Shown here in pieces: positions 644 to 7,379 of a stretch of 7,379 nt of DNA. This DNA is from a bacterium (GTDB lineage Bacteria; CSSED10-310; JAJRTK01): the NCBI GenBank assembly GCA_024278345.1, contig JAJRTK010000386.1:1-7379 (forward strand). The letters are read 5' to 3'. The notes under the pieces were generated by a model. That model did no database searches. It was not told where the DNA came from and saw nothing but the letters and a program-made list of their open reading frames with translations. Position numbers and translations under genes: made by a program. The number at the start of each line of letters is the position of its first letter. Position 1 is the first letter of the stretch.

Positions 644-1660
644 ATGTCGGCGGGCGTCAAGCCCGTGAGGTGGATGGATCGATTGCGTGTCTACGTGCGC
701 CTGACGCGTCCGTTTACGCTTTTGCCCCCTACCGTGGGAGTCTTGTCGGGGGCGGTAACGGCATTTGGATCTGCTGCGAACCCTGATCCGGAGGTGCGTC
801 TGACGTTGGCCGTGCTGATGACGGTTCTACTTGGCTCGGCCTGTGCGGCGCTCCTGAATGCGGCGTCGAACGTGATCAACCAGGTGACGGACCTGGAGAT
901 TGATCGAATCAATAAGCCGGAAAGGCCCCTACCGCGCGGGAAGATTTCCGTGACGGAAGCGAGTTGGCTGTCGGCGGTTCTTTACGCGTTGGCTCTGATT
1001 CCTACGTGGCTGGTTGTGGTCTATCCCTACGAGAGTTTCGCCTCGAAGCTGATGGCTCCGCTGGCCAAGCACGAGTGCATTCTGATTTACTTCCTTGGAA
1101 TGCTCTTCACGTTCATCTACTCGGTGCCAGCTCTGGGCCGGACGAAGGCTCGAGGTTTTTTGGCAAACATGACGATAGCCATCCCTCGCGGCTGTCTGTT
1201 GAAGGTTGCCGGCTGGTCGATGGTGGCGAGCATTGTCAATTTGGAGCCCTGGTATATTGGGTCAATTTTTCTTCTTTTCATCATCGGGGCATCGAGTACA
1301 AAGGATTTCAGCGATATCGAAGGAGACCGGGCGGGAGGGTGCAGAACGCTTCCAGTGCTCTACGGGCCGAAGGTAGCTGCCTGGATCAGTGCGCCCTTTT
1401 TCGTCTTCCCCTGGCTGTTGATTCCGCTAGGTACAAGCCTGAGTGACCCCTGGCATCCTGGTCGGACCATTCTGACTGGACATGCACAGCTTCTGGAAGT
1501 TTTGAGTGTCCTGCTGGTAATTTGGGGATTCTACGTGTCATGGCTCATGCTTCGGCGTCCCGAAGATCTGGCGAAGACTGAGAACCATCCTTCGTGGGTC
1601 CACATGTATTTGATGATGCTGACGGCGCAGATCGGATTCGCCTTGGCCTACACTTTCTGA
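644..1660 (+). CDS. UbiA-family membrane prenyltransferase
   Basis: Members of this family transfer a polyprenyl group from its diphosphate onto an aromatic ring or other acceptor within the membrane, in quinone, tocopherol, chlorophyll, haem or archaeal-type lipid synthesis. The predicted 338-residue protein has both Asp-rich Mg-diphosphate motifs: N79-Q-V-T-D83-L-E-I-D87, followed by RINKPERPLPRG, and K-D-F-S-D224-I-E-G-D228, followed by R-A-G-G. About eight or nine hydrophobic segments are visible (near 24-42, 53-78, 108-128, 145-164, 204-218, 246-263, 281-303 and 318-337). The NKPxRPLxxG signature is closer to the chlorophyll, homogentisate and geranylgeranylglyceryl-phosphate branches than to MqnP-like or coenzyme-Q enzymes, but I cannot fix the acceptor. 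The start is uncertain: ATG 644 has GGAGAG (625-630) 13 bases upstream, and ATG 674 is an alternative with GAGG 3 bases upstream. The next gene begins 11 bases after the stop, so this is likely the first gene of a four-gene operon. Confidence 0.88.
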   Translation: MSAGVKPVRWMDRLRVYVRLTRPFTLLPPTVGVLSGAVTAFGSAANPDPEVRLTLAVLMTVLLGSACAALLNAASNVINQVTDLEIDRINKPERPLPRGKISVTEASWLSAVLYALALIPTWLVVVYPYESFASKLMAPLAKHECILIYFLGMLFTFIYSVPALGRTKARGFLANMTIAIPRGCLLKVAGWSMVASIVNLEPWYIGSIFLLFIIGASSTKDFSDIEGDRAGGCRTLPVLYGPKVAAWISAPFFVFPWLLIPLGTSLSDPWHPGRTILTGHAQLLEVLSVLLVIWGFYVSWLMLRRPEDLAKTENHPSWVHMYLMMLTAQIGFALAYTF

Positions 1661-1661
1661 C

Positions 1662-1667
1662 AGGAGG
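1662..1667 (+). promoter_or_regulatory. Ribosome binding site of the ssnA-like gene
   Basis: AGGAGG lies 4 bases before ATG 1672, directly after the prenyltransferase stop codon. It decides the start, because the same frame is open further upstream to an ATG at 1594 inside the preceding gene. Confidence 0.75.
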
Positions 1668-1671
1668 CGCA

Positions 1672-3036
1672 ATGGATGGCCTGAAGCCGGTGGAAAGGGG
1701 AAGAGCGGCTGCGGAAGAAACGCTTTGCATCGTCGATACGACGGCCATCGTCGTTGGGGATAGGGGAGATCCCAAGGTCTGGCGGGGCTCGCTTTCGGTG
1801 GTGGAGGGCCGGGTCCGCTTCGGTGGCGATTCGAGGCGGTTGGGGCACGGTGTTCGGCGGATCGACGGCAAAGGACTGGTGGTGCTGCCGGGTTGGGTCA
1901 ACGGGCATACACACCTTTACAGCGCCTTGGCTCGGGGGCTCCTCACAGGCGGCGCGCCGCCTGTGAGCTTTCTGGAGATCCTGGAAGGTCTCTGGTGGAA
2001 GCTGGACCGGGCGCTGGAGAGGGACGCGGTTCGCCTGAGCGGTCTGGTGGGGTCGCTGGAGGCGCTACATTCGGGTTGCACGCTGCTTTTCGATCACCAT
2101 TCGAGCCCCACCTGCATCGAAGGGAGCCTTGATCTTCTGGCTGAAGCGGCTCTCAAAGTTGGATTGCGGGGCTCGTTCTGTTACGAGGTGAGTGACCGCG
2201 ACGGGCCGGCAGCGGCGGAAGCGGGAATCGCGGAAAACTTGAGGTTTGCCGAAGCCTCCTCGAAAGATACCAGGCTGCTGCCAATGTTCGGTCTCCACGC
2301 GTCGTTCACTCTTTCGGATCGGACTCTTCACCGGTGCGTGGAAGCGGCGGCGGATGCTGGCGTAGGGTGCCAGATCCACGCCGCGGAGGATCAGGCGGAT
2401 CAAGAGGATTGCACCGAAAAGCATGGTTGTCGCGTGGTGGAGCGTCTGGAGCGTGCTGGAGTGCTTGGCAGGCGAGCTCTGCTCGCTCACGGGGTACACC
2501 TGGCGCCACGGGAATTGGACTTGCTGGCCAGAAGCGGGACGGTACTTGTCCACAATCCTCGGTCAAACATGAACAATGGTGTGGGAGCGGCGGTGCTAAA
2601 ACGGTTGGGTGAACGTGGTGTCGCGGTCTGCTTGGGAACGGATGGCATGAGTGGGCACGTGGGGGAAGAACTGGTGGTGGGTGGACTGCTGCAGCGCCAC
2701 CAGCGGGCTCGATCTTACGCCGGCTACGGGGAGATCATGGAAGCGATTTGGGCGGGGAACCACGAGCTGGCCCGGCGTGTGGTTCCGGAGTGGCGAGGCC
2801 TTGCGGAAGGAGCAGAGGCGGATCTTGTGTTGCTCCGATATGATTCTCCCACGCCGTTGGAAAGCTACAACGTCGTTGGGCATCTGATGTTTGGTCTTGC
2901 CGCCGCGCCTGTCCACAGTGTGCTCGTAGGTGGTAAATTGGTCCTCGACGAGGGTGTGGCAACAGGAGTCAACGAGCGGGAAATCCGCGCCGAAGCGCGA
3001 GAGACAGCCGCTAGGTTGTGGAGTCGAATCAAGTGA
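1672..3036 (+). CDS. ssnA: SsnA-like metal-dependent aminohydrolase
   Basis: This 454-residue protein belongs to the cytosine-deaminase/TRZ-ATZ branch of the amidohydrolase superfamily: a small beta-sandwich made from both termini plus a metal-binding barrel. Expected metal ligands are all present: H79-T-H81 in GHTHLYSALARG, H236 in QIHAAED, H273 in LAHGVHL and D324 in LGTDGM. SsnA-type signatures run throughout: LWWKLDRAL (108-115), DHHSSP (141-146), GLHASFTLSD (207-216), HNPRSNMNN (294-302) and YDSPTPLESYNVVGH (390-404). The E. coli protein of about 440 residues lies in a purine/selenium-linked catabolic region, and its exact substrate is unsettled. A hydrolytic deaminase on a nucleobase-like compound is the family expectation. 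Aminodeoxyfutalosine deaminase is a related alternative, but the motifs favour SsnA. The stop overlaps the next start (GTGA, 3033-3036). A perfect 26-base palindrome lies within residues 91-99. Confidence 0.88.
   Translation: MDGLKPVERGRAAAEETLCIVDTTAIVVGDRGDPKVWRGSLSVVEGRVRFGGDSRRLGHGVRRIDGKGLVVLPGWVNGHTHLYSALARGLLTGGAPPVSFLEILEGLWWKLDRALERDAVRLSGLVGSLEALHSGCTLLFDHHSSPTCIEGSLDLLAEAALKVGLRGSFCYEVSDRDGPAAAEAGIAENLRFAEASSKDTRLLPMFGLHASFTLSDRTLHRCVEAAADAGVGCQIHAAEDQADQEDCTEKHGCRVVERLERAGVLGRRALLAHGVHLAPRELDLLARSGTVLVHNPRSNMNNGVGAAVLKRLGERGVAVCLGTDGMSGHVGEELVVGGLLQRHQRARSYAGYGEIMEAIWAGNHELARRVVPEWRGLAEGAEADLVLLRYDSPTPLESYNVVGHLMFGLAAAPVHSVLVGGKLVLDEGVATGVNEREIRAEARETAARLWSRIK
1942..1967. repeat. 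Perfect 26-base palindrome inside ssnA-like gene
   Basis: The 13-base half-site CTCACAGGCGGCG is followed immediately by its exact reverse complement, with no spacer. The centre is GGCGCGCC. It encodes about residues 91-99, a loop just after the metal-binding HTHLYSALARG motif that differs from E. coli SsnA. No T-run follows, so it is not a typical terminator. It could form a very stable mRNA hairpin, bind a dimeric protein, or be a relic of a small inserted palindromic element. Confidence 0.9.
3020..3023 (+). promoter_or_regulatory. Ribosome binding site of the GlgC-like gene
   Basis: GGAG sits 9 bases before GTG 3033, which overlaps the TGA of the ssnA-like gene. This spacing favours GTG 3033 over the in-frame GTG at 3018, which has no comparable site. 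Confidence 0.5.
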
Positions 3037-4325
3037 GAAAAAACCGTTCGCCGAAAGTCATGGGTATGGTGTTGGCTGGTGGCACCGTTCCCGGCCTTGA
3101 AGTCTTGTCCAAGCAACGCACAAAGGCGGCAGTTCCGTTTGGCGGAGCCTATCGGATCATCGATTTCGCACTGACGAACCTGGCCTACGCTGATGTGACC
3201 GAAGTGGGGGTGTTAACGCAACACCGCCCGGAATCGCTGATGAACCACCTGGGAAACGGTCATCCTTGGGGGATGATCGGGCTCAACCGGTGCTTGAGGC
3301 GATTACCGCCCTTCACAGGGGCGTCCGATAGCCGCTGGTATCGGGGAAATGCCGATGCGGTAGCACAAAACCTGGATTTCATCGCATCAAGGGACCCCGA
3401 GCATGTACTGGTGGTTTCAGGCGACCATGTCTACCGCATGGACTATACCGAAGTCTTGGAACGTCACGTTGAGAGTGGTGCCGCGGTAACTCTTGCGGTC
3501 CTCCCCGTGCCGAAGCTGACCTATCCGAGCCGTTTTGGCTTGGCGACGGTGGAAGAGGGGTGGGTGACATCCTATCGGGAAAAGCCGGAGGCCCCATGCG
3601 GGGGTCTTGTCTGTTTGAGCGTCTATCTTTTTAGAAAGGACGCTCTTTTTCGGGTATTGCAGGCGTCAAATAGTCGAGCCGTGGTCGATTTCGGCCGCGA
3701 CGTACTTCCGGATCTCGTGGCCCAAAAGCGAGTGGCGGCCTATGTTTTCGGCGGCCCGTGGCTCTACCTTGGCGACCTCCAATCATATTGGCAGGCACAC
3801 ATGGACTTGCTGGGACCAGCGACAAAGCTGGTTTTGGACCGCTGGAACATCCTGACGAACCTCGATGATCGGAGCGTTTCAGTGAGTCCACCGCCCTTTG
3901 TGGGAAGCGAAGGCCAATTGGATAACAGCATGATCGGTCCTGGCTGCATCGTGGAAGGGGAGGTCCACGACTCGGTGCTCTTCCCCGGCTGCCGCGTGCA
4001 TCCCGGGGCCATCGTCCGCTCATCGGTGCTGATGCATGGGACGGTGGTGGGTCCTCGGTCGCGCCTTCATACGGTGATCACGGATAAGGACGTCACCATA
4101 GGAGAGGGCGTGACAGCGGGAGTCCCCGCGGAACCTGCCGATTGGGAGACGGCTTCCAGACTTCCGACGACCATGGGAAAAAACTGTCATATCCCGTCCG
4201 GTATCCAGATTGGAGCCGGAGCAATCTTCTACCCCGGGGTCGGGGAGCGAGAGCTCACGGACCTCTGGATCCCACCCCACACCACCCTCCAGCCGAAGGT
4301 TGAAGATCGATGGCTTCAAGACTAA
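3033..4325 (+). CDS. Degenerate GlgC paralogue, probable regulatory subunit
   Basis: The product of about 430 residues has the two-domain layout of ADP-glucose pyrophosphorylase: a nucleotidyltransferase domain (about 10-260) and a C-terminal left-handed beta-helix with hexapeptide-like repeats (about 285-400). Kept features include KAAVPFGG with K31, YRIIDF (40-45), SGDHVYRMDY with D131, REKP with K184, and DFGRD (219-223). Lost features matter: the loop after LAGG reads T-V-P-G-L-E where active enzymes have xGTRL, so its glycine and triphosphate-contacting arginine are gone. The motif WRDVGT reads W-L-Y-L-G-D, with Y245 replacing the second metal-binding aspartate (D276 in E. coli GlgC). 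SMGIY has also become CLSVY. I infer a catalytically dead or weak partner of the GlgC encoded directly downstream, as in GlgC/GlgD of Firmicutes or plant large subunits. It could instead have taken on a separate sugar-binding role. It overlaps ssnA by 4 bases and the next gene by 16. Confidence 0.85.
   Translation: MRKNRSPKVMGMVLAGGTVPGLEVLSKQRTKAAVPFGGAYRIIDFALTNLAYADVTEVGVLTQHRPESLMNHLGNGHPWGMIGLNRCLRRLPPFTGASDSRWYRGNADAVAQNLDFIASRDPEHVLVVSGDHVYRMDYTEVLERHVESGAAVTLAVLPVPKLTYPSRFGLATVEEGWVTSYREKPEAPCGGLVCLSVYLFRKDALFRVLQASNSRAVVDFGRDVLPDLVAQKRVAAYVFGGPWLYLGDLQSYWQAHMDLLGPATKLVLDRWNILTNLDDRSVSVSPPPFVGSEGQLDNSMIGPGCIVEGEVHDSVLFPGCRVHPGAIVRSSVLMHGTVVGPRSRLHTVITDKDVTIGEGVTAGVPAEPADWETASRLPTTMGKNCHIPSGIQIGAGAIFYPGVGERELTDLWIPPHTTLQPKVEDRWLQD
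4296..4299 (+). promoter_or_regulatory. Ribosome binding site of glgC
   Basis: AAGG lies 10 bases before ATG 4310, inside the final codons of the preceding gene. It is weak, which fits translational coupling across the 16-base overlap. Confidence 0.4.
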
Positions 4326-5575
4326 CGACCGCCCTCATTTTGGCGGGGGGACAAGGGACGCGCCTCAACGTCTTGTCGAAACAGCGCGCCAAACCTGGCG
4401 TGCCCTTTGGAGGAACCTATCGGATCATCGATTTCGTGCTGTCGAACCTGATGCATTCCCGGATCGAGCAGGTGGGTCTGCTGACGCAGTATCGGCCGGG
4501 CTCTCTGCTGGAGCATGTCAGCGGGCCGGAATGGTGGGATTTCGTGGGTCGCAGCCGGGTCCTCGACATCCTGCCGCCTCACACGGGCCGAGTGGGGTCG
4601 GACTGGTATCGGGCTACTGCTGACGCAGTGTATCAGAACATCGCCTGGCTGAGGCGAACGAAGGCCAAAGACTGCTTGATCCTCTCTGGGGACCACATCT
4701 ACAGCATGGACTACCGGGATCTTGTGGGTTTTCACAGATCGACGAAAGCGGATGTGACTCTTACGGTGAAGCGAATGCCCTCTTCGGTGCTCAACCAGTT
4801 CGGGATCGTGCTCACTCACGGCGACGGTGAGGTCTACGGCTTCGAAGAAAAGCCTCAGAAGCCGCGCTCGGATCTGGCATCGCTGGGGATTTACGTTTTC
4901 CAGACCGAAGTGCTCATCGAAGCCCTGCTTGCGGATGTGAAGCGGGCGAATTCGAGCCACGACTTCGGGAAGGACGTCATCCCGGCGCTCATCCCGTCGA
5001 AGCGGGTCATGGCCTATCCGTTCGAAGGGTACTGGCGAGATGTGGGAACCATCGAAGCCTTCTGGGAAGCCAACATGGACCTCTGTCGTGGGCTCCCTGA
5101 GTGCGACCTCACGAAGTGGAAGATCGCGACAAACTGGCACCAGCAAATTGGAACGCGACCGCCGGCGCGAGCGCTTCCGGGATCGGTGATCAAGACTTCT
5201 CTTTTGTCAGCGGGAAGCCGTGTTGCCGGGACGGTTCAGCGCTCAATCCTCTCTCCGGGAGTGGTGGTGGAAGAGGGGGCTGTGGTGGAGGACAGTATTC
5301 TGATGCAGGACATCCACGTGGGAGCAGGAACTGAAATCCGCTTCACCATCGTCGATAAGAATGTCAAAATCGGAGAAGGCGCCTCCATCGGCGGCGACAA
5401 GAAGAGCACCCCGCCGAATCGCGATTACCCTCACCACCTTTACTCGGGGCTCACGCTCATCGGCAAGGGAGCCAAAATTCCTTCTGGATGCCGGATCGGT
5501 CAAAACTGCTTGGTGGCGGACGGCGTCGATCTCAAGTCCGATGAGCTGCCATCGGGCCAAAGTGCTCTCCGCTGA
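4310..5575 (+). CDS. glgC: Glucose-1-phosphate adenylyltransferase (ADP-glucose pyrophosphorylase)
   Basis: It makes ADP-glucose and pyrophosphate from glucose 1-phosphate and ATP, the committed step of bacterial glycogen synthesis in the cytosol. The 421-residue product has the full set of motifs: LAGGQGTRL (11-19) with R18, RAKPGVPFGG with K28, YRIIDF (37-42), SGDHIYSMDY with catalytic D128, FEEKP with K181 for glucose 1-phosphate, SLGIYVF (191-197), HDFGKD (217-222) and YWRDVGT with metal-binding D244. A left-handed beta-helix domain follows from about 290. One departure is WYRATADAV (99-107), where the usual residue before TADAV is glycine. The gene follows the degenerate paralogue with a 16-base overlap, and the two share a 21-base identity (3148-3168 and 4416-4436) over the YRIIDF motif, in keeping with an old duplication. 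Its last 25 codons overlap the convergent permease gene. No other glycogen genes lie in the window. Confidence 0.95.
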   Translation: MASRLTTALILAGGQGTRLNVLSKQRAKPGVPFGGTYRIIDFVLSNLMHSRIEQVGLLTQYRPGSLLEHVSGPEWWDFVGRSRVLDILPPHTGRVGSDWYRATADAVYQNIAWLRRTKAKDCLILSGDHIYSMDYRDLVGFHRSTKADVTLTVKRMPSSVLNQFGIVLTHGDGEVYGFEEKPQKPRSDLASLGIYVFQTEVLIEALLADVKRANSSHDFGKDVIPALIPSKRVMAYPFEGYWRDVGTIEAFWEANMDLCRGLPECDLTKWKIATNWHQQIGTRPPARALPGSVIKTSLLSAGSRVAGTVQRSILSPGVVVEEGAVVEDSILMQDIHVGAGTEIRFTIVDKNVKIGEGASIGGDKKSTPPNRDYPHHLYSGLTLIGKGAKIPSGCRIGQNCLVADGVDLKSDELPSGQSALR

Positions 5576-6441
5576 CCTGGGCGAGCCCGCTGCGCTCCTC
5601 CCACGAGAACAAGTGCCCCAAGAGCGACGGCGAAAGGCAGAGAACGCACCAGCTCTTGGGAGAACCGTGCGGCCCCAAGGCTCGGGAGTTCCATGATCCA
5701 CCCAAGAAGAACACTGCCGGCCAGGATTCTCCAAACGCGGCCACCACTGAAGGCAACGATGGCCAGGGCCACAAATCCACGGCCTTCGCCCATTCCCGTC
5801 ACAAACGGCTTGCCCTGAGCCAAGGTCATTTGGGTGCCTGCCATGGCAACCAGAAGACCGCCAAGGAGGAGGAGAATGATCTGTACCCGCTTTGGATTGG
5901 CTCCGGCGGCCAAGGCCGCCTTGGGGTTTTGCCCCACGGCCTCCAGCACAAGCCCAAACCGGGAGAGGCGTAGCAGCCCCCAAGCAATGGCAGCCAGGAT
6001 CAAAGCGATCAGTCCTGAAGCCGCCAGGACCTCGCCCTTTCCAAGGAAATGGAGGGCGCTCGTCCCAATGGAAGAGGAACCTGTGGGCAGATTGGGTGAG
6101 AGGCTCTTCACGCCGTAAACCAGTTGGAGCAGAGCCCCCGTTGCACCCAGGCCGATGAGATCAACGGCAATTCCGGCGGCGAACGGATCGGCCTTTTGCA
6201 TGACGACAAAATAGGCAAAGAGGGAAACCAGCAGGCCCACGCAGAGAACAGAGCAGGCGAGTCCGCCCAAAAAGCTGCCCGAAGCGGCTGCTCCCGCCAC
6301 GGCGCAAAAACAACCTACAGCCAGAAGCCCTTCCAACCCAAGGTTGATGATACCCACACGCTCGGACATCATCTCCGCCAGACCAAGAAACACCAGCGGC
6401 AATCCACCCCACAACAGACTTTCAAGAACAACGAAATCCAT
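5500..6441 (-). CDS. ABC importer permease, YufQ/BmpA-type (nucleoside or sugar)
   Basis: This 313-residue membrane protein belongs to the branched-chain amino acid/ribose-type permease superfamily, in the branch serving BmpA-like lipoprotein transporters of nucleosides or simple sugars. Diagnostic stretches are RVGIINLGLEGLLAVG (28-43), the cytoplasmic coupling loop RFGLVLEAVGQNPKAALAAGA (161-181) and GEGRGFVALAIVAFSGG (218-234). Hydrophobic segments fill most of the chain, and a polar tail of about 30 residues follows the last one near 281. The start at 6441 is chosen for an excellent Shine-Dalgarno site; the frame continues upstream to 6549 without permease character. It follows the other permease gene by 55 bases in the same direction, and such permeases normally pair as a heterodimer. 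The polar tail is encoded where the gene overlaps the 3' end of glgC by 76 bases. Substrate cannot be told from sequence. Confidence 0.9.
   Translation of the reverse strand: MDFVVLESLLWGGLPLVFLGLAEMMSERVGIINLGLEGLLAVGCFCAVAGAAASGSFLGGLACSVLCVGLLVSLFAYFVVMQKADPFAAGIAVDLIGLGATGALLQLVYGVKSLSPNLPTGSSSIGTSALHFLGKGEVLAASGLIALILAAIAWGLLRLSRFGLVLEAVGQNPKAALAAGANPKRVQIILLLLGGLLVAMAGTQMTLAQGKPFVTGMGEGRGFVALAIVAFSGGRVWRILAGSVLLGWIMELPSLGAARFSQELVRSLPFAVALGALVLVGGAQRARPGQRRALWPDGSSSDLRSTPSATKQF
5617..5660. repeat. Inverted repeat near the convergent gene ends
   Basis: CCCAAGAGC (5617-5625) and GCTCTTGGG (5652-5660) are perfect 9-base arms around a 26-base loop, about 40 bases past the glgC stop and inside the permease coding sequence. 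Neither strand has a T-run after it, so its use as a terminator is doubtful. Confidence 0.4.
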
Positions 6442-6447
6442 ATCGTT

Positions 6448-6452
6448 CCTCC
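6448..6452 (-). promoter_or_regulatory. Ribosome binding site of the distal permease gene
   Basis: On the minus strand GGAGG stands 6 bases before ATG 6441, an ideal arrangement. It sets the start of the permease against the longer open frame that reaches 6549. Confidence 0.8.
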
Positions 6453-6496
6453 ACTCAAGCCAAGCCGCCCGCTCAAGGCAGGCAAAGCAGCTATCC

Positions 6497-7379
6497 TCAG
6501 AAGAGAGCACGAGCCCTTCCCGCCGAAGAAGGGTTGGAGGCGCCACCACCCCTTCGCCTCGGGCATGACAAGAGCAAGAGAAGCCCCGCCAAAAGAATCA
6601 CTAGACCGGTCCCCGTCCCCGGGAATCCGTCGCCTGCCACCCACAACGCTCCAAGGAAGGTGGAAGAAAACAGGATTCCCACGGGATGAGACATTCCCGC
6701 GAGAGCCACAGCCACGGCGAAGCAATCCAGCACCACTGGAGCGTCGGTAAGCTGGTGGGCCGACCCCGCAAGCAGAATCACTCCGCCTCCCAGGCCCGCG
6801 ACGGCTCCCCCCATGGCCAGGGCCAGAGTTTGCCGGCTTCCCACGGGAATTCCCAAGAAATAAGCAACTTTCGGGGAAAGTTCCGCGGTTCTCAACTCCA
6901 GCCCGAAGAGAGTCTGGAACAACAGAACATAGACCGCCAAGAGAACCACACAAGCGATACCCAATCCGACGCCCGGGGCGATCTTTCCGCTCTGAAACGT
7001 CGGTACTCCCAACGCCATCCAGACGATGAGGCTACAGAGCGCCGTGGAAAGAACCTCGGGAATGCGGCGCCGCCCTCTCAGCCAGCCTGCCAGGAAGCCT
7101 GCGAGTCCTCCCGCCAAGAAGCCAGCCGTCAAGGCGGTGCAAACGGCTCCAATCCCATCAGAAAAGAAGGGGGGCCACCTCATCGCCCAAGCTCCGGCCA
7201 AGGCGCCGAGGATCAATTGCCCTCCGGACCCCAGATTCCACAACCCGGCTCGCAAGGAGAGCGCCACGGCCAATCCCGAAAAAAGCAACGGCAGGGAGCG
7301 AAGAACGACCGCCTGGATAAAGAGCGACACCTTTTGGGGGAGGCCCAGGGCCCCTAACCAGGCGTCCCACGCCTCTGGA
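6497..7379 (-). CDS. ABC importer permease, YufP-type, partial (5' end outside window)
   Basis: This is the partner permease of the BmpA-type importer. About 293 residues are visible and mostly hydrophobic. Family stretches include RSLPLLFSGLAVALSLRAGL, then W-N-L-G-S-G-G-Q-L-I-L-G-A, and the coupling loop FGLELRTAELSPKVAYFLGI with the following glycine-rich AGLGGG. A GTG at 7330 could be read as the start, but the frame stays open to the window edge, and the residues before it (PEAWDAWLGALGLPQK) resemble the conserved segment that precedes the first core helices in this family, so the gene is cut by the edge. In the NIGAEGQL-type motif a glycine replaces the usual glutamate. By family gene order, an ATPase and a BmpA-like binding lipoprotein would be expected beyond the right edge; neither is visible here. 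Confidence 0.85.
   Translation of the reverse strand, partial: PEAWDAWLGALGLPQKVSLFIQAVVLRSLPLLFSGLAVALSLRAGLWNLGSGGQLILGALAGAWAMRWPPFFSDGIGAVCTALTAGFLAGGLAGFLAGWLRGRRRIPEVLSTALCSLIVWMALGVPTFQSGKIAPGVGLGIACVVLLAVYVLLFQTLFGLELRTAELSPKVAYFLGIPVGSRQTLALAMGGAVAGLGGGVILLAGSAHQLTDAPVVLDCFAVAVALAGMSHPVGILFSSTFLGALWVAGDGFPGTGTGLVILLAGLLLLLSCPRRRGGGASNPSSAGRARALF

Follow-up and report, generated by a model that had tools for sequence, protein, structure and literature searches.

Sequence comparisons indicate that a conserved family of degenerate ADP-glucose pyrophosphorylase (AGPase) partners exists outside the Firmicutes and plants and that it spans several phyla. AGPase controls the flux into bacterial glycogen. 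The member described here, named D-prime, is probably a GlgC paralogue without catalytic activity, acting as the modulatory second subunit of a heteromeric AGPase, judging by analogy with known systems. A helper-subunit role is probable because the pair of one broken and one intact protein recurs in many distantly related bacteria.

The D-prime gene lies in a complete contig of 7379 bases (the window) from a draft genome of 6.06 Mb in 550 contigs. The gene order on the plus strand is a UbiA prenyltransferase, an amidohydrolase near the SsnA family, D-prime and a canonical glgC, the product of which is the only canonical GlgC found in the assembly (Table 1). The GTG start of D-prime is preceded by GGAG about 8 bases 5' of it and overlaps the stop of the amidohydrolase gene in the tetranucleotide GTGA (3033–3036); an in-frame GTG at 3018 is also possible as the start. 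Because of the gene spacing, the amidohydrolase, D-prime and glgC have the appearance of one transcription unit and may be transcribed together. The amidohydrolase (1594–3036), start-stop coupled to D-prime, scored 440 bits, just below the NF005540 cut-off of 444. Two BPD_transp_2 permease genes of the nucleoside/vitamin ABC transporter type occupy positions 5500–7379 on the minus strand, convergent with the glgC genes, and the frame of the first ends within the 3' end of glgC (5500 versus 5575). The reading frames and their overlap, as given in an earlier note made from the sequence of this DNA, were reproduced.

Table 1. Positions in the window of the paired genes and of the altered active-site codons.
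Feature	Coordinates	Strand	Details or basis
Degenerate GlgC homologue, named D-prime	3033..4325	+	430 aa, GTG start, stop at 4325
Canonical GlgC, downstream gene	4310..5575	+	421 aa; GGQGTRL, GDHIY, EEKP, YWRDVGT
D-prime/glgC overlap of 16 bases, possible translational coupling	4310..4325	+	sequence
Codons for TVPGL in place of the nucleotide-binding/catalytic loop xGTRL	3084..3098	+	translation, alignment
Codon TAC for Tyr245, at the position of the E. coli GlgC Mg-binding Asp276	3765..3767	+	sequence, alignment

Both proteins belong to the ADP-glucose pyrophosphorylase family, with an NTP_transferase and a hexapeptide domain (Pfam), and the best PDB match of each is the AGPase of E. coli (E 1.5e-56 for D-prime and 2.4e-71 for the downstream GlgC). 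The nucleotidyl transferase and left-handed beta-helix domains of the AGPase superfamily were found in D-prime with Pfam, phmmer and Foldseek. The top Foldseek matches of its AlphaFold model were all AGPases; this model, of low confidence (pLDDT 64) and built from a shallow alignment, confirms the fold only. Against the curated NCBI models TIGR02091 (GlgC, cut-off 424.9 bits) and TIGR02092 (GlgD, cut-off 236.6 bits), D-prime scored 300 and 192 bits, below both cut-offs. The downstream GlgC scored 394 bits with TIGR02091, just below the cut-off, yet it has the residues expected of an active GlgC (GxGxR with the catalytic Arg, Asp142 and Asp276), of which D-prime keeps only Asp142. D-prime shares 34–41% identity with GlgCs of Chloroflexota and 38–40% with the neighbouring canonical GlgC, and the contig search for homologues matched canonical Chloroflexota GlgCs only.

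Residues are numbered hereafter as in E. coli GlgC, by alignment. Arg32 of AGPase has been described as critical for catalysis, and Asp142 and Asp276 chelate Mg2+ (PMC5474683). In D-prime, the loop G28-R-G-T-R32-L is replaced by G-T-V-P-G-L (within GGTVPGL), and WLYLGD stands where GlgC has WRDVGT, with Tyr245 at the position of Asp276 and Leu at that of Arg275. D-prime is therefore without the critical Arg32 and one of the two Mg2+-chelating Asp residues. The residues that contact glucose-1-phosphate (Glc-1P) have been reported as E194, S212, Y216, D239, W274 and D276 (PMC4890535). D-prime retains the counterparts of Lys42 (K31), Asp142 (D131), Glu194 (E183), Lys195 (K184) and Trp274 (W243) as well as those of Tyr216, Asp239 and Phe240; the pocket is imperfect, since Ser212 is replaced by Cys and Thr117 by Asn. 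In the downstream protein, every aligned motif has the canonical form. The alignment thus agrees with the earlier note, which had described an upstream protein with K31, D131, K184 and the Glc-1P side kept, TVPGL in the loop and Y245 for the metal Asp, followed by a canonical partner. Regions near Gln67 and Trp106 have been reported to trigger activation in the Agrobacterium tumefaciens enzyme (PMC10461462), and by alignment the Gln74 and Trp113 regions of D-prime appear to correspond to them.

Relatives of D-prime were picked from genome searches by Trp274-Tyr276, which gave a set of 44 proteins (the Tyr276 set). Loop Gly30 is kept in 2/44 and Arg32 in 1/44 of them. Among 137 representative homologues, 82 have both G30 and R32, and all 82 of those also have D142, K195 and D276; the joint loss of the loop and Asp276 exceeds chance. 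Several other positions are kept in the Tyr276 set, namely E194, K195, W274 and W113/Y114 (44/44 each), Q74 (43/44), S212 (41/44) and Y216 (40/44); Asp239 is usually replaced. The conserved Gln74 and Trp113 regions are compatible with a role of the degenerate family in allosteric signalling. The replacement residues are themselves conserved, including V30 (35/44), D31 (31/44), E32 (33/44), T214 (35/44) and R278 (34/44), the commonest forms being G-R-V-D-E-L in the loop and W-[GA]-Y-x-R-T downstream.

Between closely related genomes, dN/dS is 0.04–0.22 for the degenerate gene and 0.09–0.19 for the canonical partner, a range that leaves out the L091/L097 pair, where a neighbouring gene was mispicked and the value is an artefact. 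Mean pairwise identity over 37 loci is similar for the two genes (0.50 degenerate and 0.52 canonical). The degenerate gene is under purifying selection, and the replacement residues are maintained too. Because these residues are conserved and dN/dS stays at these low values, the gene is not a pseudogene. The loss of active-site residues could be read as the mark of a recent duplicate that is decaying without function; such an origin is scarcely credible for D-prime, and at the level of the family it is refuted by the intact frames, the dN/dS range and the conserved replacements, with conservation running deep over several phyla. That the replacement motif is conserved, commonly as GRVDEL together with W[GA]YxRT, suggests a new positive role for the family. 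With the Glc-1P-side residues kept, that role might be catalysis of a different reaction, or binding of sugar phosphate as an independent sensor outside any GlgC complex. We consider this very unlikely, as the loop has lost its Arg and the metal site one Asp, both reported as critical for catalysis (PMC5474683), and the steady association with GlgC, always in one order, speaks for a joint complex.

That pairing was followed across genomes. The degenerate gene comes first and the canonical gene second in 37/37 adjacent pairs; separation of the two in relatives had been named in the earlier note as what would count against a working pair, and the pair survives. Among the eight genomes from the phylum of the window, the tandem pair is present in G000, G001, G002 and G006; in G007 the canonical gene is accompanied by a related frame that runs off the contig. 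The only GlgC of G003 and G004 is a different, cyanobacterial-like one, and no GlgC match was found in G005, which is 60% complete. In a second phylum, that of G052, matches at E <= 1e-60 occur in 45/82 genomes, and most of these have two copies side by side. Extending the scan to 386 genomes added carriers beyond these two phyla (G246, G382 and G508) as well as unlinked cases (G245, G507, G381, G290, G425, G019 and G308). A canonical GlgC is still present in the genomes of the unlinked cases G245, G381, G290, G425, G019 and G308. Tight coupling is thus not universal, since at least six relatives have both genes unlinked. Asp142 is replaced by Glu (AEH/GEN/GEH) in the unlinked members L154 (G245), L131 (G507), L159 (G381), L067 (G019) and L168 (G308), in which both metal Asp residues are therefore changed. 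A search of GlgC-annotated genes in a plasmid collection gave a Chlorohelix match without a tandem partner, and no description of degenerate/canonical pairs outside Firmicutes and plants was found in the open-licence literature.

Other degenerate paralogues were also seen. L169, L172, L173, L174, L175, L176, L177, L178 and L185 have degenerate loops (e.g., AGGDSPAL, AGGRSHPL and AGGKSSPQ) with Asp276 kept, are paired with canonical GlgC in other lineages in variable gene order, and branch apart from the Tyr276 set; they are possibly additional independent cases. A still more degenerate protein, L082:2697-4037 (G113), with IAFSRGEAL, YFGHAR and no EKP, adjoins a canonical GlgC.

The large subunit of plant and algal AGPase is a modulatory paralogue of the catalytic subunit in a heterotetramer, and the role of D-prime may be likened to it. 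Unlike D-prime, the plant large subunit 9xuk_B has both GxGTRL and the Asp of WxD. Maximum-likelihood (ML) trees were built from alignments stripped of the loop and active-site columns. Forcing D-prime together with the plant large subunit was rejected (p-AU 7.4e-7), which rules out shared ancestry of the two. In the ML trees, the degenerate proteins fall among GlgCs from the same set of genomes, and the clade joining the Tyr276 set to those canonical GlgCs has support of 100/99 and 94/98 in two of the trees. The Tyr276 set as a whole is recovered as one weakly supported clade (79/61 and 75/74 in these two trees), in line with a single old duplication.

Firmicute GlgD is an inactive protein that modulates GlgC, the two forming GlgC/GlgD heterotetramers with changed kinetics, and this partner has been described as particular to Firmicutes and missing from Actinobacteria and Proteobacteria (PMC9093745). 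D-prime, also a degenerate GlgC paralogue adjoining a canonical GlgC, could be a divergent true GlgD, from the ancient duplication seen in Firmicutes, spread to or retained in other phyla. We hold this to be unlikely, although a common clade of the Tyr276 set with GlgD, at a cost of 25 and 12 log-likelihood units, stops short of rejection (p-AU 0.093 and 0.124) and real GlgDs elsewhere in the sample, such as that of G057 (326 bits), also lie 5' of GlgC. Six D-prime members tested, that of the window and five relatives (182–235 bits), all fall below the GlgD cut-off, and the GlgC model gives each a higher score. GlgD of the Firmicute type sits on a far, long branch and never groups with the Tyr276 set in the ML trees. 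D-prime has other replacement residues and keeps the GDH, EKP and WYRG motifs that are mostly lost in GlgD; its gene precedes glgC, whereas GlgC usually comes first in the sampled GlgC-GlgD pairs (from the phylum of G059, taken as Firmicutes). The reverse of that usual order was seen for GlgD-like proteins 5' of GlgC at L066:9465-10595, L180:2139-3257 and L182:4605-5726; the L066 protein, when tested, was above the TIGR02092 cut-off. An origin separate from GlgD is favoured, not proven. The proposal in the earlier note of an independent case thus holds as regards the plant subunit and agrees with every ML tree as regards GlgD, from which independence is not formally established by the AU values.

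Under the favoured reading of a modulatory subunit, the downstream canonical GlgC would carry out the chemistry (ATP + Glc-1P -> ADP-Glc + PPi), and D-prime would join it, most likely in a heterotetramer, by analogy with GlgC/GlgD. Compared with canonical bacterial GlgC (TIGR02091), D-prime has the same fold, domain order and Glc-1P-side residues and lacks the GxGTR loop and Asp276. Its Glc-1P-side pocket is kept, as are the loops through which known enzymes relay allosteric signals; like GlgD and the plant large subunits, it would adjust stability, the affinity for substrate or the response to effectors. The inactivity of D-prime, the formation of a hetero-oligomer and the modulatory role are all inferred; equal production of both proteins and sugar-phosphate sensing by D-prime, also put forward in the earlier note, may occur. 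The genome of the window encodes a glycogen synthase and a protein with an alpha-amylase C-terminal domain and the length of a branching enzyme, which it may be. In G006, a glycogen synthase gene lies upstream of the pair, separated from it by radical SAM and family 2 glycosyltransferase genes. As a tentative and rather speculative extension, an AGPase with a dead subunit may have arisen at least one more time outside Firmicutes and become standard in several little-studied phyla, with the Glc-1P pocket serving as an allosteric sugar-phosphate sensor.

If dead partners prove to form a separate, widespread family, pairs of a catalytic and a modulatory subunit would have evolved repeatedly within this one enzyme, as in plants. 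Many genes likely named glgC in the carrier phyla would then encode no active enzyme.
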